Assembly: GCF_036174265.1 (NCBI RefSeq)
Contig: NZ_CP108055.1
Location: 310,001-374,000 of the forward strand
From: Streptomyces sp. NBC_00285
GTDB lineage: Bacteria; Actinomycetota; Actinomycetes; Streptomycetales; Streptomycetaceae
Reading direction: 5' to 3'
Length of the DNA stretch: 64,000 bases
The notes under the pieces were generated by a model, which saw only the letters and a list, made by a program, of their open reading frames with translations, made no database searches and was not told the origin of the DNA. Each line of letters begins with the position of its first letter. Within the stretch, counting starts at the first letter, position 1. The position numbers and the translations under genes were made by a program. Positions 19,189-56,250 of the stretch are shown in pieces.

Positions 19189-19326
19189 CGCATACACGAT
19201 CACGGTCCCCCGTCCCTATAGACGAGCTACACCCAAGTCCGTTTCTTCGTGCAGTTCGCGGACCCGGAGTGCCCGGTCGGGGTGCTGGTTGAAGGCATTC
19301 AGGACGGTGCTGATCCAAGGACTGGG

Positions 19327-41120: not shown

Positions 41121-41147
41121 CCCCTTACCGTAAGCCGGTCCCGCAGT

Positions 41148-41954
41148 TTAGGGGGTACCCGTTGCGGTCGTCGCGGTGCCGCCGTCTACCGGGATGATGG
41201 CGCCCGTGAGGTAGGAGCCGGCCCGGCTGGCGAGAAACACGGCGATGCCCGCCATGTCGTCGTCGCGGCCGAGCCGGCGCAGAGGGGCCGCCGCCGCGAT
41301 CGTGTCGCCGATGGCATCGAGCGTGGCCCCCATCATCTGCGACGGGAACACTCCCGGTGCTACCGCGTTCACCGTTACGTGCTGTGGGCCCAGCTCCCTG
41401 GCGAGCACCCTGGTGAGTTGATGGAGTGCCGCTTTGCTGCTGGCGTACGAGTAGTTGGGCGCCTGGGCGACGTGGATGGCGGCGATACTGCCGATGTTGA
41501 TGATCCGCGCGGGGTCATCGGCGGTGCCCGCCTTGCGAAGTGCGGGCAGCAGCGCCTGCACCAGCCAGAACGGCGACTTGAGGTTGAGGTCGATCACTGA
41601 GTCCCAGGCCTCGTCCGGGAACGTCTCCAGCGGCTCGCTCCGCATCGCTCCCGCATTGTTGACCAGGATGTCCAGGCGTTCCGAGTCGGCCATGACAAGA
41701 TCAGCGAGGCGCTGACACTCGTCGTGCCTGGACAGGTCGGCGGGGATTGCTTGAACGTCGCCGAATTCGGACAGGAGATGCTGTGCCTCCGCGCACGCGT
41801 CTGCCTTGCGTGAGCTGATGACGACGCGGGCGCCCGCCTGAAGAAGGCCGCGAGCTATCATCATCCCAATGCCCCTGGTGCCGCCAGTGACAAGCGCGTA
41901 CTTCCCGCTCAGATCGAAAAGTCCTGTGCGAGTGGTGAATTGGTGGTCCGCCAT
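41148..41954 (-). CDS. SDR-family oxidoreductase
   Basis: This 268-residue short-chain dehydrogenase has the cofactor motif VTGGTRGIG near residue 23, NNAG near 98 and the catalytic Ser/Tyr/Lys set (IGSIAAIHVAQAPNYSYASSK). It ends with GAIIPVDGG. It should reduce a ketone or oxidise an alcohol with NAD(P)(H). It is the first gene of a two-gene unit with the XRE regulator. Confidence 0.94.
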   Translation of the reverse strand: MADHQFTTRTGLFDLSGKYALVTGGTRGIGMMIARGLLQAGARVVISSRKADACAEAQHLLSEFGDVQAIPADLSRHDECQRLADLVMADSERLDILVNNAGAMRSEPLETFPDEAWDSVIDLNLKSPFWLVQALLPALRKAGTADDPARIINIGSIAAIHVAQAPNYSYASSKAALHQLTRVLARELGPQHVTVNAVAPGVFPSQMMGATLDAIGDTIAAAAPLRRLGRDDDMAGIAVFLASRAGSYLTGAIIPVDGGTATTATGTP

Positions 41955-42372: not shown

Positions 42373-43398
42373 TTACCCGGGGGCGACGCAGGCATACAGC
42401 GGCAGTGGTTTCATGCCGTGGCGTTCCTTCATCGGGCGGTTGCTCCGGCCACCCTCAACCCACTGCTTGCCCGCCTCGATGGCAGTGCGGATCTCGGTGG
42501 CCCACAGAAGGTAGTTGGGGCTGAAACTGTGGACGGTGGCATCGCTGGTGCCACCCACCCACATGTGCAGGCGCAGGTCGTCCAGCAGGACCACCGCCGC
42601 CGCCAGCGTCCGCTCGCGCGCATCGACGCGCACGACGCGGGCGCGGTCGCCCAGGGCCATGACGAAGTCGATGAAGGCGTTCTCGGGATACATGTCCGCG
42701 CTGCCGTACTTGGCGGCCGTGCGACGGGTCAGGTCGCACACGGTGCGCAGGAAGTCCGGCCGGGGGGCTTCGACGGACGTCGTGACACCGGCGTCGGCCG
42801 CGCGGCGCAGATACTGGCGGATCGTGCGGCGCGTCTTCGGGCCCAGTGTTACCAGATAGTCGTCGTAGGTCGCCAGGCCCTGCAGCGGGAGCTGAAAGCG
42901 GGTGACGATGGGGGCCACCCGCCACCCCATGCGCCGGGCGGCGCCGAGCAACGGGTCGCCCTCCGCGACGTTGACGAGGCCCGTGGCCCGCGCGTTGTCG
43001 CGGGCTCCCAGTTCGACCAGGGCGTCCAGCATCGCCGCGAGCACCCGGTCGCGGTGGTCCGTGTTGGTCGCGAGGACGGGGACACAGGTGTCGTAGCAGT
43101 ACCAGTTGTGCCCGAGGAGCGCGGTGCCGTCCGCCTCTGGGATGCCGACGGTCCGCAGGAAGCCGTACGGGTCGCCCTGCTTGTCGAGGTAGCACGGCAG
43201 CACGGCGACGATCCGCCCGGCGTCGACGGCCGTCAGATAGCGGACGGCGGCGTATGGGCTGAGCGGGCTGTCCTGGTAGGCCCGCAGATACGCCGGGGAG
43301 TAGTGGACGGGGGCGCCGGCCGAGGCAGCCACCTGCTGCCACTGCTCGGTGTCGAGGTCGTCGATGGACTCGACGAACTGGACTTGCGGCACGCTCAT
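42373..43398 (-). CDS. FemAB/GNAT-like acyltransferase
   Basis: This 341-residue protein belongs to the GNAT-fold group often annotated as peptidoglycan-biosynthesis or CelD/BcsL-like. It shows the segments PVHYSPAYLRAYQD, GPKTRRTIRQYLRRAADAG and GGRSNRPMKERHGMKPLPLY. It probably transfers an acyl or aminoacyl group, possibly from an aminoacyl-tRNA, to an amine. It is the last gene of the leftward RiPP-like operon and overlaps the M28 peptidase gene by four bases (ATGA). A role in tailoring the peptide product is inferred. Confidence 0.8.
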   Translation of the reverse strand: MSVPQVQFVESIDDLDTEQWQQVAASAGAPVHYSPAYLRAYQDSPLSPYAAVRYLTAVDAGRIVAVLPCYLDKQGDPYGFLRTVGIPEADGTALLGHNWYCYDTCVPVLATNTDHRDRVLAAMLDALVELGARDNARATGLVNVAEGDPLLGAARRMGWRVAPIVTRFQLPLQGLATYDDYLVTLGPKTRRTIRQYLRRAADAGVTTSVEAPRPDFLRTVCDLTRRTAAKYGSADMYPENAFIDFVMALGDRARVVRVDARERTLAAAVVLLDDLRLHMWVGGTSDATVHSFSPNYLLWATEIRTAIEAGKQWVEGGRSNRPMKERHGMKPLPLYACVAPG

Positions 43399-45362
43399 GC
43401 CGTGCCTCCTTCGTGTGGCCGTCTGGTCCCGGGCGCCGCCACGTTGTCCGCCGCGGCTTCCTCGATCCACCCTGCCCCGGCGATCGCTGCCAGGAATCGC
43501 TCCCCGAAGTCTGCTGTCGTGGGGCGGATCCCGGAGTCCAGCTCAGCGATGCGGATGACGGCCGCCGCGTCGGAGCTGCCGTCGATGCTCTGCGCGAGGG
43601 CCATCGCGGCGGCATAGCAGCCGCCCCGGTCCACGGTCAGCTCTTCCAGGAACCACTGGCTGTCCTTCTGTGCCATGGCTCCCATCAGGGCCCGGAGGTT
43701 GAAGGGCCCGGGCCAGTTCCTGCGCAGGCCCGGGCCGCGCGGTGACGGTGGCGGCTGTTCTGTAAGGCCGTCGTCCCAGACGGACGACAGTGTGCGGTGC
43801 AGCCCGGCGAGGAATTCGGCCTGTCGGTCGAGCAGGCGGGGGCTCGCACCGAGCGGGCGCAGGGTGTGCAGGGCGTCCCGGCCGTAGTGCCAGCGCCGGG
43901 TGAGACGGGCGGCGGCCATCCCGTCGGAGGGGGGCCCGTCGGCGGACGGCAGGCATGCGGTCATCCGCCGGGCCGTCCAGCGGGCCAGGAGCTGGGTGAT
44001 GCGGTCGGCGTCCCGTCCGTCGGCCGTCGCCACGACGGCGGCCGCGGACGCCGCGATCGTGGCGGACCTGCGCAGCTCCAGCGGATCGACCTTGTCGAGT
44101 GTGTCGGCACTGGAGTGGTTGAAGCGGTCGGGCCAGTGCCCCAGTTGTACGGCGGGGCAGCCGATGGCTCGGTCGGCGAGGATCGCGTGGTCGGATGCGC
44201 CGACGAACGGTGTCGTGCGCCAGGCCCAGGTGTCGCAGCCGACGGCTCCGCTGTAGGAGCGCGCGGCGGGTGGAAGGGCTCGTACACAGGCTTCGACCAG
44301 GGCGTTGGCGTAGTGCGGGAGGTACTCCGGGCCGTATTCCACGATCAGTGGGCCGCCGCAGCGGCGCTGGTCTTCGCCCACCATGTCGAGGTTGACCGCC
44401 ATCGCGGGGAGCGGTCGGGTGCCCTCTTCGACCGCTTGGTGGACGTAGGCGGCCAGGCCCACGAACTCGGGTGCCCACACGAACCGGACGGGTCGGCGCA
44501 GCGAGCGTCCCGCCAGCACGCGTCCGGCTGCCAGTGCCGCCGCGACTCCCGAGGCGTTGTCGTTGGCTCCGGGCGCCGGATGGCACAGGTGGGCGGTGAG
44601 CAGACATGCGTCGGCCTCGTCCGCCGGCGGACACCTCGACGGGGTGCGGGCGACCACGACAGGCATCTGCCGGGGGCCCGTGTCGACATCGACGACCACC
44701 CGGGCCCGCTCCCCCCGCCGGTGCGCACGCAGCAGCTCCTCCAGCTGGGCCGGGAACACGCTGAAGCCGAACAGGGAACTGTCGCCGGGCAGTTCGACCC
44801 GCCCCGCCTGTCCGGGCCGGTCGGGGTCTGTCGTCACACAGAACCCCCTCGCCTTCTCGGCCCGCATCCGGGCGAACAGGCCGGGACCGAGGTCGGCCGC
44901 CGACCCGACGAGGACCAGCGCGCCCGGCGGCCAGCCGGAATCCCGCGGCAGCGCGAGCGGCACCTCGCCGTCCACGGCCACCGAGTTCGCCGCGATGGCG
45001 TAGGGCTGTGCGGGGTAACTGACCAGCGGGGGACGGCCGTTGAGCGAGAGGTGCGCGGCGCGCGGCGTCCAGGAGGAGGGCGCCGTGTACGTCCACCACG
45101 CGGTCCTGCCGTCCGCCGGGAAGCTCAGCACCTTGACGTCGGCCAGCCCCACGCGTTCGGCCTCGCCCGCGACGAAGTCGGCTGCCTCGGCGATGCCCGC
45201 CGATCCCTGGTAACGGTCCCATTCGGCCAGCCGGGCGACCCAGCCCATCGCTTCGTCGGCGTCGATTCTCTGGTGGATGCCACCGACCAGGCCGCTCAGG
45301 CCACTTGGGCCGCTGAGGCGGTCCGAAAGGCCCGGGCCGCTCGCACCTGCGAAGCCGCTCAC
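43395..45362 (-). CDS. M28-family peptidase (DUF4910-like)
   Basis: This 655-residue protein has an M28 zinc-peptidase core between about 230 and 450: LLTAHLCHPAPGANDNASG (His and Asp ligands), FVWAPEFVG (Glu), VNLDMVGED and GASDHAILAD. A PA-like inserted domain precedes the core and a helical extension of about 190 residues follows. No signal peptide, so it is probably cytoplasmic and could remove a leader peptide or trim residues stepwise. It starts 2 bp after the fusion gene upstream. Peptidase family is clear; substrate is inferred from context. Confidence 0.85.
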   Translation of the reverse strand: MSGFAGASGPGLSDRLSGPSGLSGLVGGIHQRIDADEAMGWVARLAEWDRYQGSAGIAEAADFVAGEAERVGLADVKVLSFPADGRTAWWTYTAPSSWTPRAAHLSLNGRPPLVSYPAQPYAIAANSVAVDGEVPLALPRDSGWPPGALVLVGSAADLGPGLFARMRAEKARGFCVTTDPDRPGQAGRVELPGDSSLFGFSVFPAQLEELLRAHRRGERARVVVDVDTGPRQMPVVVARTPSRCPPADEADACLLTAHLCHPAPGANDNASGVAAALAAGRVLAGRSLRRPVRFVWAPEFVGLAAYVHQAVEEGTRPLPAMAVNLDMVGEDQRRCGGPLIVEYGPEYLPHYANALVEACVRALPPAARSYSGAVGCDTWAWRTTPFVGASDHAILADRAIGCPAVQLGHWPDRFNHSSADTLDKVDPLELRRSATIAASAAAVVATADGRDADRITQLLARWTARRMTACLPSADGPPSDGMAAARLTRRWHYGRDALHTLRPLGASPRLLDRQAEFLAGLHRTLSSVWDDGLTEQPPPSPRGPGLRRNWPGPFNLRALMGAMAQKDSQWFLEELTVDRGGCYAAAMALAQSIDGSSDAAAVIRIAELDSGIRPTTADFGERFLAAIAGAGWIEEAAADNVAAPGTRRPHEGGTA

Positions 45363-45363
45363 G

Positions 45364-47307
45364 CTATCCGCCCTGGGAGAAGGCCGCGCGGAACGCCGTC
45401 AGCCGGGCGTTCGACAGCGGGACGGTGATCTTGAAAAGCCTGCCGCCGCTCTCCGCGTCCGACAGCCCCCGGTCCGCAGCCCCCGGACCGGACGGCGCGC
45501 GCCCCTCCACCCTCGTCCCCGTGCCCCGCATCCCCTGTCCCTCCACCTCTTTGACCTGCAGCCCCAGTTTCTCGATCAGGGCCCTGGCCGAGTCGTCCGC
45601 CGGTGCGGTCACCCATGGCAGACAGACAGCCCCCTGCGTCACCGCTAGCCCCGCCCCCCGCAGCAGTGCCGTCATCTGCGGCTTCACCTCGGCGATCCTG
45701 GCCCGCAGCGCGGCGAAGACGTCTCCCTGCGCCAGCAGGCCGAGGGAGACGGCCAGGCCGAAGCCGTTCGCGCCCAGCGGTGGCAGGGCTTCCCGCAGTC
45801 GTTGCGTCAGCGCGGGCGCGGCGACCGCGAAGCCGACCCTGAGCCCGCCGCAGCAGTAGCCCTTGGACATGCTGCGCACGACGATCAGGTTGTCGTGGTC
45901 GGCGACCGCGGGTACGCAGCTGGCGGACGGCCCGGCGTAGACGGCGTATGCCTCGTCGAGGACCACCGTCGTGCCGCGTGCGCGGGCGGCCTGGGCGATC
46001 TCCTCCAGCGCCGCTCTGCCGTACAGGTCTCCCGTGATCGTCGGGCGGTCGAGGACGAGGACCGAGGGAGCATGCTGGTCGAGGTCGGCCGCCAGGTCCT
46101 CGATCCGGGTCGCGAGCGCCTCACTGCCCCAGCGCGCGGCCCATCGTGGCAGGTCCGGGTGACCGCCGCGCAGGTGCAGCACGGGGCCCGGCTGCGCCAG
46201 TGCGGCGCACGCGTGCAGCAGAGCGGTGGCGCCGGTCCCGGCGGTCACCGTGTCCGGGGGCAGTTCGAGGCCGAAGTGCTCGGACAGCACCGGCGCGGCC
46301 TGTGCGGCGGCATAGGGGTCCATCACGTGGTAGGCGCGCGCTGCGTCGGGGGTGACCCCCCGCAGGGCACGGTCGACCGCGGGCCGTACGAAGTCGATCT
46401 CGTCGGGCGACCAGCGCAGGTCCAGGACATCCCCGAGGGCGGCCGGTTCCGCCGGTCCCGGTGCCGCGGAGCCCACGAGCCCTGCGGCGGTGGGCCGTTG
46501 CCACGCCGTGATCGCGGTGGTGTCCCCGGCCCTGGGGTTACGGGCGACGAACTGCACGTATCGCGTCGTCAGTGCGGCTTCTTGGCCGATGGTGAAGTCT
46601 GCGTCGGCGCGCTCGACCTCGAAACCGGCGCGGATCAGCAGTTCTCGTACCTCGGCGGGCTGGTAGAGCCGTACGTCGTCATGGACGACGACCGGCTCCG
46701 CGTCACCGTGCCGGACCTCGATCGAACCGGCGCTGCGGCCGCTCACCACGCGGTAGTCCCGGCGGAAGACGGCCCGCAACCCCTCGGTCTCGAAGGTCGC
46801 CTCGGGCACGTAGTGGCCCGCGATCGTCAGGACGTTGGAATGGTCGAGTACGAGGAGCCCGCCCGGTACGAGCGCGCGGCGGGCCTCTCGGAGCAGCCGC
46901 AGCTGCTGGGCATCACTGCCCCAGCCGAAGGACTGCACGCAGACGAGCGCGTCGAACTCCCCCACCGGCCAGGCGGGTTCACGCAGCAGGTCCAGGTGCA
47001 GCCACCGCGCCTCCACCCCGGCCGCGGCCGCCGACCCCGCGGCCTGCCGCAGCGCCCACGCACCGACGTCGACCCCGGTGACACGGAACCCGCGCCCGGC
47101 CAACGCGACCGCATGGCGCCCCGTGCCGCAGCCCAGGTCGAGGACGCGCCGGCCCGGGGCCGAGGCGTCGAGGACCGCGGCCAGGTAGTCGGCCTCCGCC
47201 GCGGTGCGCTCGGGGGTGTACTCGTGGGCCGCCACCGCCCAGAACTCCTCGCCGAAGAAGTCCCGGTACCAGGGGCGGTGCGCACCGCCGCTCGCGTCAT
47301 CGGTCAC
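45364..47307 (-). CDS. SAM methyltransferase-PLP aminotransferase fusion
   Basis: This 647-residue two-domain protein joins a class I methyltransferase (RRVLDLGCGTGRHAVALAGR near residues 53-72, about 1-260) to a fold-type I PLP enzyme (about 290-647). The latter shows VTAGTGATALLHACAALAQP, VLDEAYAVYAG (PLP-binding Asp and Tyr) and the Schiff-base Lys482 in RSMSKGYCCGGLRVGF, as in histidinol-phosphate aminotransferase or CobD. The GTG at 47307 overlaps the upstream stop (GTGA); the longer frame from 47499 is out of register with homology. Such a fusion is unusual and suggests consecutive amination/decarboxylation and methylation of one intermediate. Confidence 0.88.
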   Translation of the reverse strand: MTDDASGGAHRPWYRDFFGEEFWAVAAHEYTPERTAAEADYLAAVLDASAPGRRVLDLGCGTGRHAVALAGRGFRVTGVDVGAWALRQAAGSAAAAGVEARWLHLDLLREPAWPVGEFDALVCVQSFGWGSDAQQLRLLREARRALVPGGLLVLDHSNVLTIAGHYVPEATFETEGLRAVFRRDYRVVSGRSAGSIEVRHGDAEPVVVHDDVRLYQPAEVRELLIRAGFEVERADADFTIGQEAALTTRYVQFVARNPRAGDTTAITAWQRPTAAGLVGSAAPGPAEPAALGDVLDLRWSPDEIDFVRPAVDRALRGVTPDAARAYHVMDPYAAAQAAPVLSEHFGLELPPDTVTAGTGATALLHACAALAQPGPVLHLRGGHPDLPRWAARWGSEALATRIEDLAADLDQHAPSVLVLDRPTITGDLYGRAALEEIAQAARARGTTVVLDEAYAVYAGPSASCVPAVADHDNLIVVRSMSKGYCCGGLRVGFAVAAPALTQRLREALPPLGANGFGLAVSLGLLAQGDVFAALRARIAEVKPQMTALLRGAGLAVTQGAVCLPWVTAPADDSARALIEKLGLQVKEVEGQGMRGTGTRVEGRAPSGPGAADRGLSDAESGGRLFKITVPLSNARLTAFRAAFSQGG

Positions 47308-48524
47308 AGGGCGTCCGCCCGCAGCGCCTCCTGCCGGAGGAGGAAGCCGCACACGTCGCACAGTCCGGCCGGGTTGGGCACACCCTCCATCAGGAGATAC
47401 CGGCCCTCGCAGACCCGGCACACGTCGTCGACCACCGGCAGCAGACTGCGCTGCACGTTCTCGAAGGCGTTGAACAGGTAGTAGTCGATGCCCGGCCACA
47501 GGTCGTACAGGTGGTCGGCCATCGCGTAGGCCAGGGAGCGTTCGTCGGAGCCGGTGGTGAAGCGGCCCGGGGCGCCCTGCCGGTTGAGCTCCGGCGCGAC
47601 GAGTTCGAGGTAGAGGGTCAGTTCCTTCTTGGTGATGCGGTAGAGCGGGAAGACGTACCGCAGATCGCCCAGCTCGCGGACGGGGACGCCGCCCATCCGG
47701 TATCCGGTGGTGAACCAGGTGACCATGCTGGCAACCAGGTCGTCGGCGTTGAAGCCGAAGGCCACGACCGAGGCGCCGGCACGTGCGGCCTCCTGCTCCA
47801 GCATGCGGCGCAGCACCTGGTGGCCGATCACCATGTTCATGTTGCGGTGTTCGCCGGCGACGACCTTGTTCATCACGTCGACGAACGGCTCGCGCAGCTT
47901 GAACAGTTCGGCCACGTCGTCGGCGGTCACGATCGTGTGGTCCAGGCCGAGACCCTCGCAGGCGTCCAGCGCGATCTGGAAGGTCGCCGGCTCGTCCCAG
48001 TCGGGCAGCCCGGTGATGGTGACGGCCGTCATGTCGATCTCGGGCCAGCGGCCCCGGGTGCGTTCGAGCAGCTTGAGATAGGCGACGCTGTCCCGGCCGC
48101 CCGACAGTCCGATGACGGCTCGGTCCCCGGCGCGCATCGTCCCGCCGGAGGTGATGCTCTGGACGAAGGTCTCCTCGACGTACTGCACGAAGGTCTCGGC
48201 GGTGAGCTGTTCGGTGCGGCGTTCCAGGGTCCCGCCGTGGTCGAACAGGACGGACTTGGAGTACACGGGGTCCGGCGCGGCGTAGACGTGCTCCTTGGGC
48301 TTGCGCAGTACGTCGAGGTCATAGTGGCGTACCTGACGGACCTCGATGACCTCGTCGGCCTCGACGACGACCGCCGATTCGGGGATCACCGCTCCGTTCC
48401 GGTACGAGAGCACCGCGTTGGCCGGAATGCCGTGCAGGCGCAGGACATCGAGGAGGTTCTGGCCCGGTACTGCATACAGGGTCTCCGAACCACCGGTCTT
48501 GTTGCGGAACACGACCGTGCTCAC
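47304..48524 (-). CDS. Beta-grasp (ThiS-like) + PP-loop ATPase fusion
   Basis: This 406-residue protein starts with a ubiquitin-like beta-grasp domain (residues 1-66: GQNLLDVLRLHGIPANAVLS, EVIEVRQVRHYDLDV). A PP-loop ATPase of the TtcA/CTU1/adenine-nucleotide alpha-hydrolase type follows, with SGGRDS at 141-146 and AFGFNADDLVASMV. The C-terminus has paired CxxC motifs (CRVCEG and CDVCGF). Known relatives adenylate a substrate and install sulfur. The beta-grasp part lacks the free C-terminal Gly-Gly because it is fused. In this operon it is the best candidate for putting sulfur on the peptide or on a nucleotide partner. Confidence 0.85.
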   Translation of the reverse strand: MSTVVFRNKTGGSETLYAVPGQNLLDVLRLHGIPANAVLSYRNGAVIPESAVVVEADEVIEVRQVRHYDLDVLRKPKEHVYAAPDPVYSKSVLFDHGGTLERRTEQLTAETFVQYVEETFVQSITSGGTMRAGDRAVIGLSGGRDSVAYLKLLERTRGRWPEIDMTAVTITGLPDWDEPATFQIALDACEGLGLDHTIVTADDVAELFKLREPFVDVMNKVVAGEHRNMNMVIGHQVLRRMLEQEAARAGASVVAFGFNADDLVASMVTWFTTGYRMGGVPVRELGDLRYVFPLYRITKKELTLYLELVAPELNRQGAPGRFTTGSDERSLAYAMADHLYDLWPGIDYYLFNAFENVQRSLLPVVDDVCRVCEGRYLLMEGVPNPAGLCDVCGFLLRQEALRADAL

Positions 48525-48557
48525 GGTCTCTCCTAGTCGTCTGGGGGATGCTGGGGT

Positions 48558-49673
48558 CTACCAGTTCTGGGCGAGCGGTGCGTTCCAGGCTGCGAGGGGT
48601 ACGAGCATCTCGTCGTCGGTGAGGGATCCGTGCTCCCAGGCGACGGTGGGGTCGGGCACCGGGAAGGCCGCGGAGGTGGCGAGGGCGACCACCGCGCCGA
48701 TGCGCTCGCGGACGACGGGGGTCGCGGCGAGCAGCCCGCGTTCGGCCAGGTCATCGGGGCTCAGGACGAGCGCGTGGTCGCCGAGTGCGTCGCTCAGGGC
48801 GGCCGCGAGCTCCTGTTCGTGGCCGGGCTGCGGATACATCCACCGGACACGGCCCGCGCCGCCGCTGGGCATCCGGCAGTGCGCCGGGGAGTCCAACCGG
48901 TCCCAGGCGTCCAGGAGTTCGGGCTTCGGTTGGACCGGGACCTGGCCGTGGTCGGCGTGGGCGAGGACGCTCCATCCGGCGTCGGCCCAGCGGCTCGCCG
49001 CGGTGTCCAGCAGCCGCAGGGATGCGTGCAGACGGTCGTCGTAGCCGCTGATGTGGATGTGGTCGTCGAGGTTCACGTAGGCCCATACCAGGGGTGGTAC
49101 GTCGTGTGGTTGTGCGAGGACGGCCTCGACCTCGCGCACCGTCCGCTCGGCGACCGCGATGCAATCGGGGTCGAGTTCGGTCGCCGGCGAGTGGGCGACC
49201 CGGGCGCCGTGCAGCAGCGCCGCGGCCCACTCCCCGGTCAACCGCTCGAGTTCGGCGCCGACCACGAAGGCGGTGGCGCCGGCCGCGGCGACGCGGTCGA
49301 AGAGGGTCACACCACCGTGCAGCAGGGGATTCCTGGGCGGCGGGCAGGGGCCGAAGGCGTGCGTCTGGCCCGTGATGAGGTGGGTGACGCAGTCGGCGTC
49401 CGGCGCCCGGTACACCATGCCGAGGGCGCCGTGCTGTGAGGGGTCGGCGCCGGTGACGGCGGTGAGCCAGGCAGTGGTCGAGGTGCTCGGGAACGTGGAG
49501 CGCAGGGGGCGTGTCCTGGCGTGGGCGAGGGCTGCTTCCGCGACGCCGTACGACAGGCCGTCGACCGCCAGGACGCACAGTCCGCGGGGCGCCGCGCGCA
49601 GACACCGCTCGACGACTTCGGGTACCACGCGCAGGTCGGCGGACGCTGTCGTACGTCCGCCGACACGTGGCAC
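48558..49673 (-). CDS. Alkaline-phosphatase-superfamily phosphodiesterase (NPP-like)
   Basis: This 371-residue protein resembles nucleotide pyrophosphatase/phosphodiesterases. It has LCVLAVDGLSYG (first metal Asp), STFPSTSTTAWLTAVTGADP (the Thr nucleophile lies around residues 64-67), GALGMVYRAP, YVNLDDHIHISGYDD and LAHADHGQVPV (metal ligands). No signal peptide, so it is intracellular. The GTG at 49673 lies 5 bp after the precursor-peptide stop; the longer frame from 49895 would cover the peptide gene and is rejected. Hydrolysis of a nucleotide-linked intermediate would suit the nucleotidyltransferase and NDK-like genes nearby. Confidence 0.82.
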   Translation of the reverse strand: MPRVGGRTTASADLRVVPEVVERCLRAAPRGLCVLAVDGLSYGVAEAALAHARTRPLRSTFPSTSTTAWLTAVTGADPSQHGALGMVYRAPDADCVTHLITGQTHAFGPCPPPRNPLLHGGVTLFDRVAAAGATAFVVGAELERLTGEWAAALLHGARVAHSPATELDPDCIAVAERTVREVEAVLAQPHDVPPLVWAYVNLDDHIHISGYDDRLHASLRLLDTAASRWADAGWSVLAHADHGQVPVQPKPELLDAWDRLDSPAHCRMPSGGAGRVRWMYPQPGHEQELAAALSDALGDHALVLSPDDLAERGLLAATPVVRERIGAVVALATSAAFPVPDPTVAWEHGSLTDDEMLVPLAAWNAPLAQNW

Positions 49674-49678
49674 CGTGC

Positions 49679-49840
49679 TCAGAAGTTCGGCACGCAGTCG
49701 GTGCAGGTGGTGCGGAACTTGGCGATGTGCACGGCCTGACGGTCCGTGATCATGCGCTCGACGAGGCGCGGCAGCAACATCACCGGCGCGGGGGTCGATG
49801 TGGTGGTGGTCTTCACAGTGGGGCGTGGAGCTGTCTGCAT
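49679..49840 (-). CDS. Candidate RiPP precursor peptide, 53 residues
   Basis: The ATG at 49840 follows an excellent ribosome site (AGGAGGAATTC). The 53-residue peptide starts MQTAPRPTVKTTTTSTPAPV, has a helical middle (LLPRLVERMITDRQAVHIAK, leader-like) and ends FRTTCTDCVPNF, a compact tail with two Cys, four Thr and terminal Phe. No known domain. It is the first gene of the tightly packed operon, and the modifying enzymes follow within 5 bp. Leader plus short Cys/Thr core, strong translation signal and position all fit a RiPP precursor. I do not recognise the family. Confidence 0.75.
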   Translation of the reverse strand: MQTAPRPTVKTTTTSTPAPVMLLPRLVERMITDRQAVHIAKFRTTCTDCVPNF

Positions 49841-49892
49841 GAATTCCTCCTGCTGGCTGGAATAGCGCGAGAGAAAAGTGCCGAACAACCTT

Positions 49893-49928
49893 CAACTTTG
49901 CGTGAACAGGTCAACACATGGCGAGTTG
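49893..49928. promoter_or_regulatory. CAACT / AGTTG element upstream of the precursor gene
   Basis: CAACTTTGCG (49893-49902) and GCGAGTTG (49921-49928) face each other in the promoter region of the peptide operon. GCGAGTTG recurs exactly at 51993-52000 beside CAACTACGC, upstream of the 16-codon ORF and the NDK-like gene. A shared operator for both arms is plausible. Two GTGTTGAC boxes lie here on the minus strand. Confidence 0.45.
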
Positions 49929-50038
49929 GCCTGTCAACACCGGCCAGTCACCGGTTCCCGCCCCAACTGTGGTCGTTTTCAAGCTAGTTGATGCGCCGGA
50001 AACATGGGAGCCGCGCGCGGCGAAAGCGGTGGCGGCTG

Positions 50039-50860
50039 TCAATTGACGAAGATCAGGGATTCCGCTTCCTCGACGATCTTCTCGGGGACGGGCGGACTCA
50101 TCAGGGTGCCCGCATAGCGCTCGGCGTCCGGGTCCGCTGCCCGGTGGGCGCGGGCGACGGCGTCCGCCACGTCGTAACGCGTGGTCCTCAGGCGGACGTC
50201 GGGGCCCAGCAGGGCCCAGTACGCGGTTCCCGGCTCACCGGCGTGGTACGGCAGCCCGACGCTTCCCGGGTTGACGCTGCGCAGGCCCGCCACCACACGG
50301 TCGAACTGGAGGTGCGAGTGCCCGGTGACCAGAACGCGCGCGTCGAGGGCCGCGGACAGCCGTGCGAACCGCTCCGCCGGCGTGCCCGGTGTGACCAGTT
50401 CATGGTCGCTGCGCGGCGAGCCATGGCAGAAGTGCGCCGGGCCGAGGCCGTCGATCTCGACCGTGACTGCGAAGGGCACCCGGGTGAGGAAGTCGATGGC
50501 CTCGGGCGAGTGCTGGGCCGCGATCCACGACTGACGGGGTGTGTCGGCCACGCGCGCGGCGGTGCCGATCTCGGCGGCGTACCGGTCGGCGTTGCCCCGC
50601 ACGCACAGGGCGCGCTCCCCCAGCGCGAGGATCCGCTCGTACGTCTCCTGCGGCTGCGGGCCCCACGTCAGGTCGCCGCACAGCACGACGAGGTCGGCCG
50701 CGGCGACGTCGGGTTCGGCGAGCACGGCTTCGAAGGCGGGGATGTTCGCGTGGATGTCGGAGAGTACGGCGACCCGGGCCACCGGCCCGTACCGCTGCAC
50801 CGGCCCTTCCCAGCTCGCCGGACCGTGCAGCGTGACGTCGTCCGTCGTGGAGTCGTCCAT
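50039..50860 (-). CDS. Metallophosphoesterase
   Basis: This 273-residue calcineurin-like phosphoesterase has all metal motifs: SDIHANIPAFEAVL, LCGDLTWGP, RGNAD and VTGHSHLQFD. The MPE core spans about 28-215. The ATG at 50860 (MDDSTTDD) is used; longer reading would overlap the NDK-like gene. It lies 56 bp after the NDK-like gene on the same strand. Substrate unknown; in this cluster it could remove a phosphate used as a protecting or activating group. Confidence 0.9.
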   Translation of the reverse strand: MDDSTTDDVTLHGPASWEGPVQRYGPVARVAVLSDIHANIPAFEAVLAEPDVAAADLVVLCGDLTWGPQPQETYERILALGERALCVRGNADRYAAEIGTAARVADTPRQSWIAAQHSPEAIDFLTRVPFAVTVEIDGLGPAHFCHGSPRSDHELVTPGTPAERFARLSAALDARVLVTGHSHLQFDRVVAGLRSVNPGSVGLPYHAGEPGTAYWALLGPDVRLRTTRYDVADAVARAHRAADPDAERYAGTLMSPPVPEKIVEEAESLIFVN

Positions 50861-50916
50861 CGGGGATGGGGCCTTTCGGGTGCGGTCCTGGGCGCGGGAC
50901 GGGCGGGCAGGGACGG

Positions 50917-51918
50917 TCACTGGTCCGCGGCGACGACCGCGGGCGTGGGACCGCGAGCGGGCAGCGTGGTGGTCGCGGGGACGTTTCCGCCCGCCCCAGG
51001 TGGTGCGGCCTGCGTGGACCTGGAGGTTCGGGGATGGTTCAGACGTGTGCCGGGAGGCGGTCCGATCAGCGCCGTGCCCTCGGACGGCAGGCCGTCGACC
51101 AGATGCGCGGCGATCACTATGCGGTCCCACAGCGGGAGCCCGCCGTGGTCCTCGGCCAGCTCATCCACCCGGGCGAGGAGCCCGTCGGAGTCGGTCACCG
51201 CCGGCGGCAGCGGGCCGGGAGTCGGGGCCAGGGAGTGGGCCGGATGGGCGGCGTAGAGCCGACGTGCGGCGGCGGCCACCTCGGCGGCACGCCCGGGCGA
51301 CGGCTCGCCCGCCAGCATCGCCAGCGCCTCGTCCCGGCGCCGCCCCGACAGCAGGACGCCCACCTCCCGGATGAGATCGGCGCAATCGTCCGGCGCGTGC
51401 AGGAAATTGAGACACATCAGCTCGCAGCCGAGCGCACCGCGCAGTGAACCGCCCCCCGTGTCCCGGTTCTTGGACGATCCCTTCAACTCCCCGAGCCGTT
51501 CGGCCGCCGTCATCCCCGTCCGCTCCGGACCCTGGGTGCAGCGCAGCGCGACGAAGAGACAGGGCGGCCCCGACTCCAGGATCATGTCCACGGCCCGGAT
51601 GACGGCCAGCGGCGCGGCGTTGATCTGGTAGCGCCACAGCTCGCGGCAGACCCGCGCGTCGACCCGGACCTCCAGCGCGCCGAGCGGTGCGAAACCGTGG
51701 CCCGCCAGCAGGTCGAGGGCGGCCTCGATGCGGCGTCCGACGACGGCGTCGGGCTTGAACATGACGAAGGTGGTACGGCCAAGTGTCCGCTCGGTCTCCC
51801 CCGCGTCCCGCCCGTCCAGCAAAGCGGCCATCTCGCGGAAGTAGACGTCGTCCGGATAGGTTCGGCGCCGTACGGGGTCGTGCGTGAAGGGGGCCCGCAA
51901 CCACTGCTGGACGGCCAT
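50917..51918 (-). CDS. Nucleoside-diphosphate-kinase-like protein
   Basis: This 333-residue protein has an NDK-like fold from about 45 to 190: TFVMFKPDAVVGRRIEAALD matches the KPDAV opening. LNFLHAPDDCADLIREV retains the His of the NDK active-site motif (usually N-x-x-H-x-S-D). A long insert separates the two, and the C-terminal 140 residues are helical then Pro/Ala-rich and unassigned. It is far longer than housekeeping NDK (about 140), so it is probably a specialised phosphotransferase. The ATG follows GGAGGATC. It diverges from the 16-codon ORF. Confidence 0.75.
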   Translation of the reverse strand: MAVQQWLRAPFTHDPVRRRTYPDDVYFREMAALLDGRDAGETERTLGRTTFVMFKPDAVVGRRIEAALDLLAGHGFAPLGALEVRVDARVCRELWRYQINAAPLAVIRAVDMILESGPPCLFVALRCTQGPERTGMTAAERLGELKGSSKNRDTGGGSLRGALGCELMCLNFLHAPDDCADLIREVGVLLSGRRRDEALAMLAGEPSPGRAAEVAAAARRLYAAHPAHSLAPTPGPLPPAVTDSDGLLARVDELAEDHGGLPLWDRIVIAAHLVDGLPSEGTALIGPPPGTRLNHPRTSRSTQAAPPGAGGNVPATTTLPARGPTPAVVAADQ

Positions 51919-51973
51919 GATCCTCCGACTCTCCGCGCGGTGGCGGCCTGTGCACCTACCCGGCAATTCACGC

Positions 51974-52000
51974 CAACTACGCTGTATGCAAAGCGAGTTG
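51974..52000. promoter_or_regulatory. Imperfect inverted repeat CAACTACGC / GCGAGTTG
   Basis: CAACTACGC (51974-51982) and GCGAGTTG (51993-52000) lie in the 156-bp gap between the divergent NDK-like gene and the 16-codon ORF. The right arm is identical to one upstream of the 53-residue peptide gene. Confidence 0.45.
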
Positions 52001-52074
52001 CACCGTTGCCATGCACCATGGGGGGCAATACGCTGAGGCTAACTTCCCAGACCGAACACATCAAGGAGGGTCCC

Positions 52075-52125
52075 ATGAGCGTCGCCTTCAAGAAGGTTAC
52101 GGTCCGTCCGAAGCCGGGCAAGTAA
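52075..52125 (+). CDS. 16-residue peptide ORF
   Basis: An ATG preceded at ideal distance by AAGGAGGG encodes MSVAFKKVTVRPKPGK and then TAA. It is far too short for gene finders. The strong ribosome site, very basic composition and position at the head of the nucleotidyltransferase/exporter arm suggest it is translated, either as a second, leaderless precursor (microcin C-like in size) or as a leader/attenuation peptide. About 150 bp separate it from the next start. No homologue is recalled. Confidence 0.55.
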   Translation: MSVAFKKVTVRPKPGK

Positions 52126-52278
52126 GCGATCGGTGTCGATGCGATCGGGATCCGGTCGTCCGGTATTTCCGGAGATCCTGATCGCGTCTTCCGTCGCTCG
52201 CCCGAGCGTCTCCCTCGTTCAATTCGCGTCGCCCTTTCGACCCCGACGAAATCTCGCTCACTGAGGGCGGAGTCCGCG

Positions 52279-53655
52279 TTGACCGACACAACGACCGGGA
52301 TCGCGGTCACGACGGACACGGTTCTCGCCCTGCTGAAAGCGAAGCCCCGGTCCGCTCGCGACACCGTGCTGCGCACGGCCCGCGACAGTCAGCACAAGCT
52401 CGCCGGAACCCTGTTGAGCCTCTGGGCCGCCGCCGGCGAGGAGCTCACGGTCGACCAGGCGGCCGAACTACGGCTGGCCCAGGAGCGTATCGAGCACTAC
52501 CGCCGGCTCTGGGAACAGCTTCAGGAGCACGCGCCCGACGCCTTCCTCCTGAAGGGGATGACGATCGCCGCCCTCTATCCGCCGGGGGTACTCCGCTCGG
52601 CCGGCGACCTCGACGTCATCTGCCCCCGCCATGACGACCTGTGGGCCTGCGCCCGCCACCTTGCCGCGACCGGCTGGGAGTTGGAGGCCTTCACCGTGGG
52701 GCCCGCCCACCCCGGCGACACCGTCTCCCCGCACCTGGGCGCAGAGTTCCGCAAACCGGCACCTGACCCGTCCCAGGACCCCTACGCCGTGGGCCTGTTC
52801 ACCGCCGAGATCGTGACGGACGTCCACGGACCGCCCCGGCAACTCGCCCGGCCGCCGGGTTCCCCACTGGCCGCGAGCACCGTCGCCCTGGTCGCGGAAC
52901 GCTGGGAACGACGCTTCCGCTCCCGTGACCTGCTCGACCTGGTCCTCCTGCTCGGGGCCCTGGACGAGCCGGGCCTACGACAGCTGCGCGCCGACCTCGA
53001 CAAGGCCGGTCTGTGGCCGGAGTGGCGGGAGGCGATGCGCGGAATCGGCCGCCTCGGCTGGCGGCCCGCGGTAGTCCTGCCGCACACCCGGGCGGCGGCT
53101 GTCCGCGTACGACTGCTGCGGTCGGTGCGCACGGCCTTGCGCTGGAGCAACCCGGTTCGCGCGGCAGCCTTCGTCGCGCAGTCCGGCATCGAGGGCCGCG
53201 GGGGGCGCCTCGCCGCTCTCGCCTCCGATGTCATACACCGCCGGCCCGGTGCGCGACGGCTGCTCACCGCGGGAGTGCCGCTGTTCGGGGTGCCTGTGCC
53301 CGAGGTGCCTGTGCCCGAGGTGCCCATGCCCGAGGTGCCCATGCCCGGGGTGCCGATGCCCGGGAAGCAGCCGGCCGCACGCGCCGACACGGCCTCAATC
53401 GCTGCCGACGGTGTGCGTGCGGACGGCCCCACGGACGGATCTCCCGACGCCGAGCCGGTCGAGGGGCTGCAGCTCCACGACGTCGGCCGCCATCTGGTCG
53501 CGCGGACCCCGCTGGGTGCCTTCCTGCTGGTGTCCGGGGCCGCCCGGCAGGAATGGCTCGACGAGGCAGCCGGTCCGCAGTCCGTCCCCTCCACCCCATC
53601 CGGACCATCCAGCACCAGGTCTTCTTCGTCTTCGTCAGTGCGAACGGGAGCATGA
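52279..53655 (+). CDS. Nucleotidyltransferase-fold protein
   Basis: This 458-residue protein begins at TTG 52279. A nucleotidyltransferase-like domain covers about 85-200: LKGMTIAALYPPGVLRSAGDL followed by DV carries the S-x-x-D-x-D metal pattern, with a later Asp in AEIVTDVHG. A helical middle follows, then a Pro-rich repeat (VPVPEV/VPMPEV, about 338-362) and a C-terminal patch (LQLHDVGRHLVARTPLGAFL) that might bind peptide. Similar proteins occur in some peptide clusters and may adenylylate products or act in immunity. The stop overlaps the ABC ATPase start (ATGA). Confidence 0.75.
   Translation: MTDTTTGIAVTTDTVLALLKAKPRSARDTVLRTARDSQHKLAGTLLSLWAAAGEELTVDQAAELRLAQERIEHYRRLWEQLQEHAPDAFLLKGMTIAALYPPGVLRSAGDLDVICPRHDDLWACARHLAATGWELEAFTVGPAHPGDTVSPHLGAEFRKPAPDPSQDPYAVGLFTAEIVTDVHGPPRQLARPPGSPLAASTVALVAERWERRFRSRDLLDLVLLLGALDEPGLRQLRADLDKAGLWPEWREAMRGIGRLGWRPAVVLPHTRAAAVRVRLLRSVRTALRWSNPVRAAAFVAQSGIEGRGGRLAALASDVIHRRPGARRLLTAGVPLFGVPVPEVPVPEVPMPEVPMPGVPMPGKQPAARADTASIAADGVRADGPTDGSPDAEPVEGLQLHDVGRHLVARTPLGAFLLVSGAARQEWLDEAAGPQSVPSTPSGPSSTRSSSSSSVRTGA
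53290..53364 (+). repeat. 15-bp coding tandem repeat (VP[VM]PE)
   Basis: Five consecutive near-identical 15-bp units of the type GTGCCTGTGCCCGAG encode VPVPE/VPMPE/VPMPG pentapeptides inside the nucleotidyltransferase gene. The unit is in frame, so copy number can vary without breaking the protein. It probably forms an extended linker. Confidence 0.85.
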
Positions 53656-54641
53656 TGCGCGACAGCGGCCATCGGCCGGACGGTACGCAGCTGGCCGTCG
53701 ACACCCGCTGCCTCAAGCGCGAGTACCGCGTGCGGCGCGGCCCGGCAGTCACCGCCCTGGACGGTGTGTCGATCCAGGTGGAGCAGGGCGAGGTGCACGG
53801 ACTGCTCGGCCCGAACGGGGCCGGCAAGAGCACTCTGATGAAGATCCTCTCGACGGTGCTGCTGCCGACCTCCGGAAGCGCCTATGTGCTCGGCCATGAC
53901 CTGGTGACCGAGCACCGGCGGATCCGGCCGCTGCTCGGCATCGTCTTCGGCGGCGAACGCGGCCTCTATCCACGCCTGACTGCCCGTCAGAACCTGCGCT
54001 ACTGGGCAGCGCTGTACGGCCTGTCCACGAAGAAGGGCCTGGCCAGGACCAACGAACTGCTCGACGAACTCGGCCTGGCCGAGCGGGCCGACGACCGCGT
54101 GGAGACCTTCTCGGTCGGCATGCGCCAACGTCTGCACCTGGCCCGGGGAATCATCGGAGACCCACGTGTACTGCTGCTCGACGAACCCACCAACGGCCTG
54201 GACCCGCTGGCCGCCCGCCAGTTGCGAGAGCTGATCCAGAAGCTCGCCGGGGAGGGCCGTACCATCCTCCTCGCCACGCACGATCTGGCCGAGGCTGAAG
54301 TGCTCTGCGACCGCGTCACGATGATCAATCACGGCCGGGTCATCGCGGCCGAGGCGCCGAAGACCCTGGCACGGCTGATGTCACGGCAGGAACGTATCCG
54401 CGTCCGCGCCGATACTGGGCTGCTCAACCGGGTGCGCGACCTCGACGGTGTCCTCGACGTGGCCCCGGCCGACGACGGCACCGCGGTGATCTCCGTCGAC
54501 AGCCAGGAAGCCGTCGGCACCGTACTGGCATTTGTGGTCGCCGAGGGTGTCACCGACGTCCGCACGGAGCTGCCCGGCCTCGAAGAGGTCTACCTCCGAC
54601 TCGTGCACCACAACGAGCAGCGCAGCGTGGTGAACCGGTGA
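53652..54641 (+). CDS. ABC-2 transporter ATPase
   Basis: This 329-residue ATP-binding subunit has Walker A (GPNGAGKST near 56), the signature FSVGMRQRL, Walker B VLLLDEPTNGLD and the His switch ATHDL. A C-terminal regulatory domain of about 80 residues follows. It is of the daunorubicin/Nod-type exporter class. I start at the ATG 53652, overlapping the nucleotidyltransferase stop; the much longer open frame from 53013 is a shadow. With the two permeases downstream it should export the cluster product or confer self-resistance. Confidence 0.95.
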   Translation: MMRDSGHRPDGTQLAVDTRCLKREYRVRRGPAVTALDGVSIQVEQGEVHGLLGPNGAGKSTLMKILSTVLLPTSGSAYVLGHDLVTEHRRIRPLLGIVFGGERGLYPRLTARQNLRYWAALYGLSTKKGLARTNELLDELGLAERADDRVETFSVGMRQRLHLARGIIGDPRVLLLDEPTNGLDPLAARQLRELIQKLAGEGRTILLATHDLAEAEVLCDRVTMINHGRVIAAEAPKTLARLMSRQERIRVRADTGLLNRVRDLDGVLDVAPADDGTAVISVDSQEAVGTVLAFVVAEGVTDVRTELPGLEEVYLRLVHHNEQRSVVNR

Positions 54642-55405
54642 GTCTGCTCGCCGCGACCGGCCGCTTCCAGGGCCGTCTGGTGCTGACCCACCGCGACTAC
54701 CTCATCGACCTGGTGCGCACCCCACTGCTCGCCGCCGTGTTCCTGCTGTTGATCCGGCACAACGACAAGCCCGACCTCCTGGCCTACGGGCTGCTCGCAC
54801 CGGTGCTGATGGGTGTGTGGAGCATGGCGATGCTGATCTCCGGGGAGGTCGTCGACAACGACCGCTGGCTCGGCACCCTGGAACTCCAGATCGCGGCACC
54901 GGCCGACTTCGCCCGGGTAGTGCTCAGCAGGGTCTGGGTGACCACGGCGATCAGTCTGCTGACGGTGGTGGAGGTCGCCGCCGTCGCGATCCTCGGCTTC
55001 GGCATCGTCCCCGAGGTCCCCCACCCGTTCATCTTCCTGGTGAGCCTGCTCGCCACCGCGGTCGCCACCGCCGGGTCCGCCACCCTGATGGCCGCCCTGT
55101 TCGTGGCGACGCGCACCGCCCGTACCTTCCAGAACTCGCTGAGCTATCCGGTGCTGCTGCTCGGCGGGGTATTCACCCCCCTCGACCGGCTGCCGGAGTG
55201 GACGCACCCCATCGGTCGCCTCCTCTACCTTTCCTGGAGTTCCGACCTCCTGCGTGACGCGCTGAACCCGGCCCCCGTCACCTCGGCGCTCTGGCGGACC
55301 AGCGTCGTCCTTTTCCTCGGGCTCCTCACCGGGCTCGGCGGCCGACTGCTGCTCGGCAGGGTCGTACGGCTGGTACGGGAGACCGGGACGGTGGGACTGT
55401 CTTGA
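54638..55405 (+). CDS. ABC-2 transporter permease
   Basis: This 255-residue membrane protein has about six helices (for example LLAAVFLLLIRHND, FIFLVSLLATAVATAGSATL, VVLFLGLLTGLGGRLLLG) and the ABC-2 motif NSLSYPVLLLGGVFTPLDRL with P-E-W-T-H-P-I-G before the fifth helix. The GTG overlaps the ATPase stop. It is one half of the exporter channel. Confidence 0.92.
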   Translation: MSLLAATGRFQGRLVLTHRDYLIDLVRTPLLAAVFLLLIRHNDKPDLLAYGLLAPVLMGVWSMAMLISGEVVDNDRWLGTLELQIAAPADFARVVLSRVWVTTAISLLTVVEVAAVAILGFGIVPEVPHPFIFLVSLLATAVATAGSATLMAALFVATRTARTFQNSLSYPVLLLGGVFTPLDRLPEWTHPIGRLLYLSWSSDLLRDALNPAPVTSALWRTSVVLFLGLLTGLGGRLLLGRVVRLVRETGTVGLS

Positions 55406-56250
55406 GCAACGTCACGGACGTCACGGCCACCTCGACGGACGACGGCACGCCCGGCGCGTCCAGCCGCCGTCTCCAGGTACTGAGCTGGGCGGCGCGCGCC
55501 GGAGCCGCCGACTACGGCACGGTCTTCACCTGGAAGACCTGGCTGCTCGGCTGGTTTGTGCGGATGCTCGCCCAGGTGCTCTTCTTCACCACCATCGGCG
55601 ACCTGCTCGGCCCCGGCCAGGCCCGCTACCTGCTGATCGGCAACGCGGTGGCGCTGGTGGCGCTGCACGGCATCTTCGCGACCGCGTCGACCACATGGGA
55701 ACTCCAGAACGGCACCCTGCCCCTGCTGGTCGCCTCTCCCAGCAGCCCCTCGCTGGTCCTGCTGGGACGGAGCCTGTTCTGGCTACCGGACGGCGTGGCA
55801 TGCGGCCTGGGCGCGATACTCATCCTCGCCCCCGTGGCGGACCTGCGGTTGACCGTGGCCAGGGTGGCCCTGCTCGCCGCTCTCCTCGTCCTCGTCGCGA
55901 TGACGACCTACTGCCTCGGCCTGTTCCTGGGCTCCCTGGTACTGACCGCTGCGGACCTGCGCAACGTGGTGTCGAACGCGGCGTTCACGGTGATGCTGAT
56001 CGTCTGCGGCCCTGAGGTACCGGCGAGCGCCGTCGGCCCGGTGCTCGGCCGGATCGGCGACGTCCTGCCACTCACCCACGGTCTCCTCGCGGTCCGCGAA
56101 GTACTGGCCGGAAGAGCGGGTCCCCACACCGCCGTGCTGGCGGGCTGGGAAACACTCATCGGGGCCTGCTGGCTCGCGGCGGCCCTCACAACACTGACAT
56201 GGCGAGCCCGCCGCAGCCGCCGCGACGGGGCGGCCCTCTTCCTGACTTGA
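55402..56250 (+). CDS. ABC-2 transporter permease
   Basis: This 282-residue membrane protein is the second channel half. A 40-residue cytoplasmic start precedes helices including WLLGWFVRMLAQVLFFTTIG, LAALLVLVAMTTYCLGLFLG and VSNAAFTVMLIVCGPEVPAS, with DVLPLTHGLLAVREVLAGRA near the end. The TTG start at 55402 overlaps the previous stop. It is the last gene of the rightward arm. Confidence 0.92.
   Translation: MSNVTDVTATSTDDGTPGASSRRLQVLSWAARAGAADYGTVFTWKTWLLGWFVRMLAQVLFFTTIGDLLGPGQARYLLIGNAVALVALHGIFATASTTWELQNGTLPLLVASPSSPSLVLLGRSLFWLPDGVACGLGAILILAPVADLRLTVARVALLAALLVLVAMTTYCLGLFLGSLVLTAADLRNVVSNAAFTVMLIVCGPEVPASAVGPVLGRIGDVLPLTHGLLAVREVLAGRAGPHTAVLAGWETLIGACWLAAALTTLTWRARRSRRDGAALFLT

Follow-up and report, generated by a model that had tools for sequence, protein, structure and literature searches.

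The window analysed here is a stretch of 64,000 nucleotides from Streptomyces sp. NBC_00285 (310-374 kb of contig 1, NZ_CP108055.1, in a 10.3 Mb genome of high G+C content), and it contains a gene cluster headed by the gene for a 53-residue peptide. From its sequence, we consider it somewhat probable that this cluster belongs to an as yet undescribed family of pathways for ribosomal peptides, in which the C-terminal core of the peptide would be the substrate of a PP-loop ATPase encoded nearby. The invariant module appears to consist of only two genes, one for a peptide of about 50 residues and one for a PP-loop enzyme that is evidently derived from the TtuA/NcsA tRNA-thiolase fold and has lost its Fe-S site. 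An original prediction, made from the DNA letters alone, had proposed a peptide-centred biosynthetic cluster outside the standard classes of ribosomally synthesized and post-translationally modified peptides (RiPPs). A pathway of this kind, either RiPP-like or using a carrier peptide, is supported because the cores are fixed and the peptide co-occurs with the PP-loop enzyme. The family is a candidate new class of RiPP or carrier peptide.

The Peptide and Its Fixed Core

Genes in the window were called by open reading frame (ORF) and codon-usage analysis, and domains were assigned with Pfam and NCBIfam. The peptide gene (positions 49679..49840, minus strand) starts with an ATG at 49840, with GGAGG upstream, and its product has a variable leader, a conserved middle segment, and a fixed C-terminal core, KFRTTCTDCVPNF, the codons of the last 13 residues occupying 49682..49720 on the same strand. 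When genome contigs were scanned with aligned PP-loop proteins, 14 further loci (L008-L021) came to light, and in 13 of them a peptide of 46-57 residues ends in KFRTTCTDCVPNY or a close variant, the exception being L020, from a Legionella metagenome-assembled genome (MAG). The 14 loci of the window clade, the window included, are the fairer sample of conservation because the PP-loop gene was what led to them. All 14 agree almost completely in the last 13 residues, and 8 of the 13 core codons vary synonymously. Only four positions show amino-acid changes: there are single T-to-N, T-to-S, and V-to-L replacements, and the last residue varies.

Searching 5.8 billion proteins with a profile yielded 397 relatives of the peptide. 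In the best 120 of the 397, the last 13 positions read K-F-R-T-T-C-T-D-C-[V/L]-P-N-[Y/F/W/M/L] in every case (120/120), behind leaders that vary; this count leans to conservation because the best-scoring 120 were compared and the search words include the core. Near-identity across the 14 loci of the window clade puts the conservation of the core far beyond chance, and at least one cysteine is present in every peptide core seen. The cluster contains a gene-encoded precursor with a variable leader and a conserved core, which is the general pattern of a RiPP. The distance from the peptide gene to the PP-loop gene downstream is 58-178 bp in the 12 loci measured; in the window, the gene for an NPP-type phosphodiesterase sits between the two.

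Co-occurrence with the PP-loop Enzyme

Whether a small peptide is conserved with the cluster enzymes had been posed as a check on the original prediction, and the answer is positive. The peptide and the PP-loop enzyme were sought by separate whole-genome searches in 345 genomes of the order that includes the genome of L015. The enzyme was found in 15 genomes, the peptide (by profile) in 14, both in 14, and the peptide alone in none (Fisher p = 5e-24). In the fifteenth enzyme genome (G862, locus L051), ORF inspection revealed a peptide missed by the profile, MATATL...IRFRTCCADPRASR, 178 bp upstream of the PP-loop gene. Among 230 genomes from the family that includes the genome of L016, for which the peptide profile already included the clade-B peptides described below, the enzyme is present in 4 and the peptide in the same 4 (p = 9e-9). 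Of the 13 genomes behind L008-L021, 12 contain the peptide, with 13 copies in total, only at the known clusters (E <= 0.1). The PP-loop enzyme itself is sparse: of 61 relatives, 1 has it, namely the genome of the window; of 396 genomes in the phylum, 2 have it, that genome among them; and it is in the above-mentioned 15 of 345.

The PP-loop Enzyme

The PP-loop protein (47304..48524, minus strand) consists of a beta-grasp-like N-terminus fused to a PP-loop ATPase with the motif SGGRDS and a C-terminal CxxC...CxxC ribbon. The predicted model has the TtuA/NcsA fold with its SGGxDS loop; its nearest folds are the thiolases TtuA and NcsA, with LarE lower in the ranking, and the weak NCBIfam matches of the protein are tRNA thiolases. 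Pfam gives PF01171 only, below the cut-off, and no asparagine-synthase domain. The beta-grasp domain of the original prediction is retained as a resemblance, drawn from names in the source records ("sulfur carrier protein ThiS") and from the predicted strand order, with no Pfam match.

In TtuA and NcsA, three cysteines bind a [4Fe-4S] cluster, according to the available part of PMC6225789. The window enzyme lacks this three-cysteine site. The NcsA stretches PCSFC and SPCP, where we take its Fe-S cysteines to lie in the alignment, are matched by cysteine-free stretches, and none of 45 sequences has a cysteine at window residues 222-242 or 308-328. The only invariant cysteines are C369, C372, C389, and C392, all in the C-terminal ribbon; C189, outside the ribbon, is found in 26 of the 45 sequences and in 5 of 12 diverse sequences. 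The fused N-terminal domain, moreover, lacks the free C-terminus that a thiocarboxylate would need. The lack of the Fe-S cysteines is the reason for rejecting, as the default, the sulfur transfer that the original prediction had assigned to this enzyme.

Partner Enzymes

The gene counts for the window's clade (clade A) refer to 15 loci, the window and L020 included, one of which (L016) is cut by a contig end. Four genes of the minus-strand operon are each found in 13 loci. They encode the NPP/alkaline-phosphatase-superfamily phosphodiesterase (48558..49628; PF01663, E 2e-10), which was followed across 13 loci; an S-adenosylmethionine (SAM) methyltransferase fused to a CobD/HisC-type pyridoxal-phosphate (PLP) aminotransferase/decarboxylase (45364..47307); an M28/DUF4910 peptidase (43395..45362); and a FemX-like transferase of the FemAB/GNAT fold (42373..43398; PF13480/PF04339). 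An NTP_transf_5 nucleotidyltransferase (52279..53655, plus strand; PF14907) is present in 14. Counts for the others are 8 for a second FemX-like gene, 7 for an M16 peptidase gene, 8 for a major facilitator superfamily (MFS) transporter gene, and 7 by blastp for a protein resembling nucleoside diphosphate kinase (NDK), the last being an undercount that rises to 12 loci under a looser criterion. Of the idea that the peptide is activated through nucleotide chemistry, a nucleotide-handling flavour is supported, as the counts for the nucleotidyltransferase and the NDK-like protein illustrate.

Two parts named in the original prediction, a YfcE-type metallophosphoesterase (50039..50860, minus strand; TIGR00040 above the cut-off) and an ABC-2 exporter, were dropped from the core because each occurs in only 4 of the 15 loci; the former is treated here as accessory. 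The exporter comprises an ATPase (53655..54641) and two membrane proteins (54638..55405 and 55402..56250; both PF01061), all on the plus strand. The ATPase is part of the exporter in the window and in L008-L010, and the second membrane protein gene adjoins the first in 4 of the 15 loci. An MFS gene is present in 8 of the 11 loci other than these ABC-2 carriers.

The conserved active-site patterns make the partner enzymes look catalytically intact. In the NPP-type protein, D23, D188, H192, D226, H227, and H333 are invariant, presumably as metal-site residues. K482 of the fusion protein is also invariant and is likely the PLP lysine, the metal-site pattern of the M28 peptidase is conserved, and D110 and D112 of the nucleotidyltransferase are invariant. 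The NDK domain of the window protein (50917..51918, minus strand) scores 25.6, slightly below the Pfam cut-off of 27, and its catalytic-type histidine, His174, is conserved. We assume for the PLP lysine, the M28 His/Asp/Glu residues, the NDK histidine, and the D-x-D residues of the nucleotidyltransferase the roles usual in their families. In L010 (6683-8455), NDK-like and metallophosphoesterase domains are joined in one ORF, linking both functions.

The FemX-like protein, whose predicted model has a pLDDT of 92.4 and whose profile finds FemX structures at E 5e-7, has K324 in 17 of 17 sequences and, four positions earlier, N320 in 13 of 17. The key lysine is K305 in FemXWv and K329 in DhpH-C, the latter with N325 four residues before, as given in the available part of PMC12945691. 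The N320/K324 spacing equals that of N325/K329, and the enzyme is probably aminoacyl-tRNA dependent.

Related Clades and Swapped Tailoring Sets

In clade B, the PP-loop enzymes are 26-29% identical to that of the window and the peptide core is IRFRTCCADPRAS[R/K], the pattern FRT...D being common to the cores of both clades. Four clade-B clusters (L048-L051) contain NPP, M28, FemX-like, fusion-related aminotransferase, and MFS genes, like the set in the window; in L051, the match spans most of the methyltransferase-aminotransferase fusion, and Pfam found no methyltransferase domain in the two fusion-related proteins scanned (L048 and L051). In four other clade-B clusters (L047, L058, L059, and L060), the peptide and PP-loop genes are accompanied by SPASM radical-SAM genes, two in each and one in L059, where the contig stops 1.3 kb beyond it, and three of the four have an M20 peptidase gene. 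L047 adds two ATP-grasp genes, a PhyH oxygenase gene, and an RlmN-like radical-SAM gene, and L058 has relatives of the last two. The RlmN/Cfr-like genes lie at 5395-6267 in L047, where the match to the RlmN model begins at its position 72, and at 5755-6585 and 19311-19964 in L058. L058 has two peptide genes (10772-10924 and 19036-19191) with one core, IRFRTCCADPRASK, and different leaders, and an RlmN/Cfr-like gene stands beside the second copy as well. Such an enzyme could modify either the peptide or RNA.

The clade-A locus L019, with the core KFRTNCSDCVPNL, contains peptide, PP-loop, NTP_transf_5, FemAB-like, ATP-grasp ligase, and MFS genes; no NPP, methyltransferase-aminotransferase, or M28 gene was found in the 14.5 kb examined of its 17.4-kb contig. 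The replacement of M28 by M20 in the radical-SAM clusters and the ATP-grasp genes of L047 and L019 suggest a common theme, in which a modified residue or short peptide may be released and amino acids ligated to it.

More distant relatives are found on plasmids. The peptide of Geobacillus plasmid pGS18, RFRTCATDPITSW, has FRT..TD in common with clade A and FRTC..DP with clade B. A Pantoea plasmid (L003), representing a distant enterobacterial branch, has a peptide with a fixed core of its own, together with PP-loop (23%), M28 (35% identity), NPP (31% identity), aminotransferase (27%), and NTP_transf_5 genes. Its peptide has nine database relatives, those with names including Klebsiella, Serratia, and Dickeya, and the stretch GIETICGASCETGAQ is identical in 9 of the 10 enterobacterial peptides, the tenth differing at two residues. 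The same region (L003, 9553-20414) also carries thymidylate-kinase-like, phosphoenolpyruvate-binding-domain, FAD-binding, amidase, and SurE genes. On a Xenorhabdus plasmid, a short peptide ending in DICGGSTRVVSG is encoded 77 bp upstream of the PP-loop gene. Genes or fragments for Clp/AAA-type unfoldases stand beside three distant PP-loop loci (L002 15258-16532, L004 12339-13232, and L020 9507-9980), possibly for self-protection or as a link to the target.

Among plasmid records, 5 matched the window enzyme, 4 the Xenorhabdus enzyme, and 1 the Pantoea NPP (itself). In viral and phage collections, no relatives were confirmed in viral contigs and no phage record matched the Pantoea enzyme; one phage record matched the window enzyme weakly (24.8% identity, E 9e-6). 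E. coli genomes had no match to the initial 3.7 kb of DNA from the Pantoea cluster, and the Xenorhabdus enzyme, searched against 369 genomes from the class to which the Legionella MAG belongs, matched only the MAG itself. A Persicobacter match, a 270-residue ORF that looks like an ordinary TtcA, was dropped. In L020 (10001-21096) and L027 (7176-11360), PP-loop, methyltransferase-aminotransferase, M28, FemAB-like, and NPP genes occur with glycosyltransferase, PIG-L deacetylase, and radical-SAM genes and no visible peptide, and the enzyme may act on something else there. On a Paenarthrobacter plasmid (L024, 8830-10038), a distant PP-loop relative lies downstream of the gene for a large S1-domain protein; no convincing peptide was seen among the small ORFs of this locus, which stands outside the co-occurrence counts.

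Proposed Pathway and Alternatives

From the conservation, the co-occurrence, the predicted fold, the loss of cysteines, and the active-site patterns of the partners, we infer the following chemistry. The PP-loop enzyme would bind the peptide and use ATP to adenylate a carbonyl of the core, whether of a backbone amide, an Asp/Asn side chain, or the C-terminus (the choice is a guess), and a nucleophile, either an amine or a core Cys/Thr side chain, would capture it. The nucleotidyltransferase, NDK-like, and NPP-type enzymes might, by a similar guess, attach a nucleotide or phosphate tag and take it off again. The methyltransferase/PLP fusion would tailor a released or N-terminal residue, the M28 peptidase (and M16 in other clusters) would trim the peptide, the FemX-like enzyme would add an amino acid from an aminoacyl-tRNA, and an ABC-2 or MFS transporter would export the product. 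In other clusters, SPASM radical-SAM and M20 enzymes would replace this tailoring set around the peptide/PP-loop pair. A more specific version, which we offer tentatively and think rather less than probable, is that the TtuA-derived enzyme without an Fe-S site adenylates a backbone carbonyl by a core Cys/Thr to give azolines, amidines, or thioamides independently of YcaO, and that it founds a RiPP superclass in which tailoring modules (nucleotide/PLP/FemX or SPASM radical-SAM) are swapped around one kind of peptide.

It is also possible, if unlikely, that the peptide is a carrier, as in the pearlin and LysW-type systems. LysW-type carrier proteins serve as scaffolds, and here the PP-loop enzyme would activate the C-terminus or an Asp side chain and load an amino acid, which would be tailored and cut off by M28 or M20, the core being recycled. 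One core with two quite different tailoring sets is what a scaffold would have, and the switch of peptidase type and the ATP-grasp ligase genes in L047 and L019 point the same way; pearlins, too, are made on peptides of about the same size (PMC9016710 and PMC9303977, in the parts available). On the contrary, no LanB-like (PEARL) domain was found by Pfam in the proteins scanned from the window or related loci, and the C-terminal residue varies (Y, F, W, M, or L in clade A and R/K in clade B), the fixed residues being internal. We regard as improbable a sulfur pathway, LarE-like or as originally predicted, in which a core Cys would donate sulfur, sacrificially or as a persulfide, and a nucleotide or the peptide would be thiolated by the PP-loop enzyme. 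The thiolase folds nearest to the model, with LarE lower, the cysteine in each core seen, and the common C189 are consistent with it. The stretches aligned with the Fe-S site are nevertheless cysteine-free in 45 of 45 sequences, no cysteine outside the ribbon is invariant, no desulfurase, rhodanese, or E1-like domain was found among the window proteins scanned, and nine residues besides the two cysteines are fixed in the best 120 of 397 cores, more than a sulfur donor needs.

The PP-loop enzyme might instead need the small protein as a partner or be regulated by it, the product being a small molecule from other precursors. The tight pairing of the two genes and the Legionella MAG cluster without a visible peptide would suit such a role, but the pattern of variable leader and fixed core argues against it, as do the peptidases and SPASM radical-SAM enzymes of the clusters, which are typical of peptide maturation, and we consider it very improbable. 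That the enzyme is an ordinary tRNA-modifying enzyme beside an unrelated ORF is hardly credible: its fold and weak NCBIfam matches are indeed those of tRNA thiolases, but its sparse distribution, its clustering with tailoring enzymes, and its co-occurrence with the peptide all speak against this.

Several observations weigh against the reading that we favour, a peptide pathway in which the core is the substrate of the PP-loop enzyme. A cluster without a conserved small peptide had been named as a possible refutation, and in one relative, L020, no peptide was found. L020 has the PP-loop (48%), methyltransferase-aminotransferase, M28, and NPP genes, no peptide is recognisable in the 46 kb examined of its 57-kb contig or by profile in the genome, and its PP-loop enzyme may have another substrate. 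In 10 of the 11 clade-A rows of the order searched, the peptide and PP-loop genes are 3.9-6.9 kb apart and do not adjoin. Only the aminotransferase half of the fusion is matched in L048, L049, and L050, three of the four such clade-B clusters. Variation among relatives beyond the best 120 of 397 lies outside the comparison, and words from the core were used to find them. Finally, Pfam matched no PqqD-type RiPP recognition element (RRE) in the window proteins scanned; such domains often escape Pfam, and an RRE is not present in all RiPPs.

If the favoured reading is right, the family would form a new class of pathways for ribosomal peptides, its hallmark being an enzyme for which such work is not known, and would show the recruitment of a tRNA-modification fold to peptide chemistry. 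The pathway would be common to scattered actinobacteria, a Geobacillus plasmid, and, in distant form, enterobacteria. The core is fixed, and the enzyme's substrate would therefore be known in advance, making in vitro tests direct. In the open-licence literature (titles and starts of abstracts among the matches listed, 20 of 81 in one case, with subscription papers outside the search), neither this peptide nor a RiPP cluster with a TtuA-like enzyme was found described; nor was any paper found there for two exact clade-A core strings, the clade-B core not being searched.

Layout and Neighbouring Genes

All genes named in the original prediction are present, including the 53-residue peptide at the head of the operon, which continues on the minus strand with NPP, PP-loop, methyltransferase-aminotransferase fusion, M28/DUF4910, and FemAB/GNAT genes. 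The claim that nearly all of them overlap by 4 bp was overstated: two of the five operon junctions do so, and the others are gaps of 50, 33, and 1 bp. Upstream of the operon are the metallophosphoesterase and NDK-like genes (minus strand) and then the nucleotidyltransferase and ABC-2 genes (plus strand), where two of three junctions overlap by 4 bp and one by 1 bp. The reported absence of LanB, YcaO, radical-SAM, and ATP-grasp genes holds for the window proteins scanned with Pfam, including YcaO as the mark of linear azole-containing peptides and thioamitides, and radical-SAM and ATP-grasp genes do occur in the related clusters. A scan for promoters and terminators found nothing. Two subtilase (S8) genes (36369-38714 and 58749-60509) flank the cluster region at some distance, and a gene for an MmyB-type regulator beside a short-chain dehydrogenase/reductase (SDR) gene (40227-41954) adjoins the operon end and is probably unrelated to the cluster.

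Comparison with Known Systems

The TtuA/NcsA tRNA thiolases resemble the window enzyme in predicted fold, SGGxDS PP-loop, and C-terminal cysteine pairs, whereas the window enzyme has no Fe-S cysteines, has a fused N-terminal beta-grasp-like domain, and sits in a biosynthetic cluster. YcfA of the 6-thioguanine pathway is likewise a tRNA-thiolase-related PP-loop ATPase in secondary metabolism, but the product there is a thio-nucleobase, and the available part of the source mentions no precursor peptide (PMC6225789). In the nitrilobacillins (PMC13060819), an ATP-pyrophosphatase-type enzyme also acts on a ribosomal precursor peptide; it belongs to the asparagine-synthetase family, whose domain is absent from the window PP-loop protein, and the hosts are Bacillus-related, the partners are MNIO and HExxH proteins, and the peptide is a different one.

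The pearlins (3-thiaglutamate and 3-thiahomoleucine), as far as the available parts of their sources go, are also tailored on a peptide of about 50 residues and then released by proteolysis. There, however, a LanB-like PEARL enzyme loads a tRNA-borne residue on the C-terminus, and no lantibiotic dehydratase domain was found in the proteins scanned from the window or related loci. The dehydrophos and pacidamycin pathways use GNAT-fold, FemX-like aminoacyl-tRNA-dependent tailoring enzymes with a key lysine (PMC12945691), and their products do not come from this kind of peptide. N-acetyl sugar amidotransferase (NASAT) differs from the window enzyme, in the available part of its source (PMC10607449), in having a sugar substrate, a tetracysteine motif N-terminal to the PP-loop rather than C-terminal, and no mention of a beta-grasp domain. 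It nevertheless combines, like the window enzyme, a PP-loop with a zinc-binding tetracysteine motif, and the same source implicates it in the conversion of an amide to an amidine.

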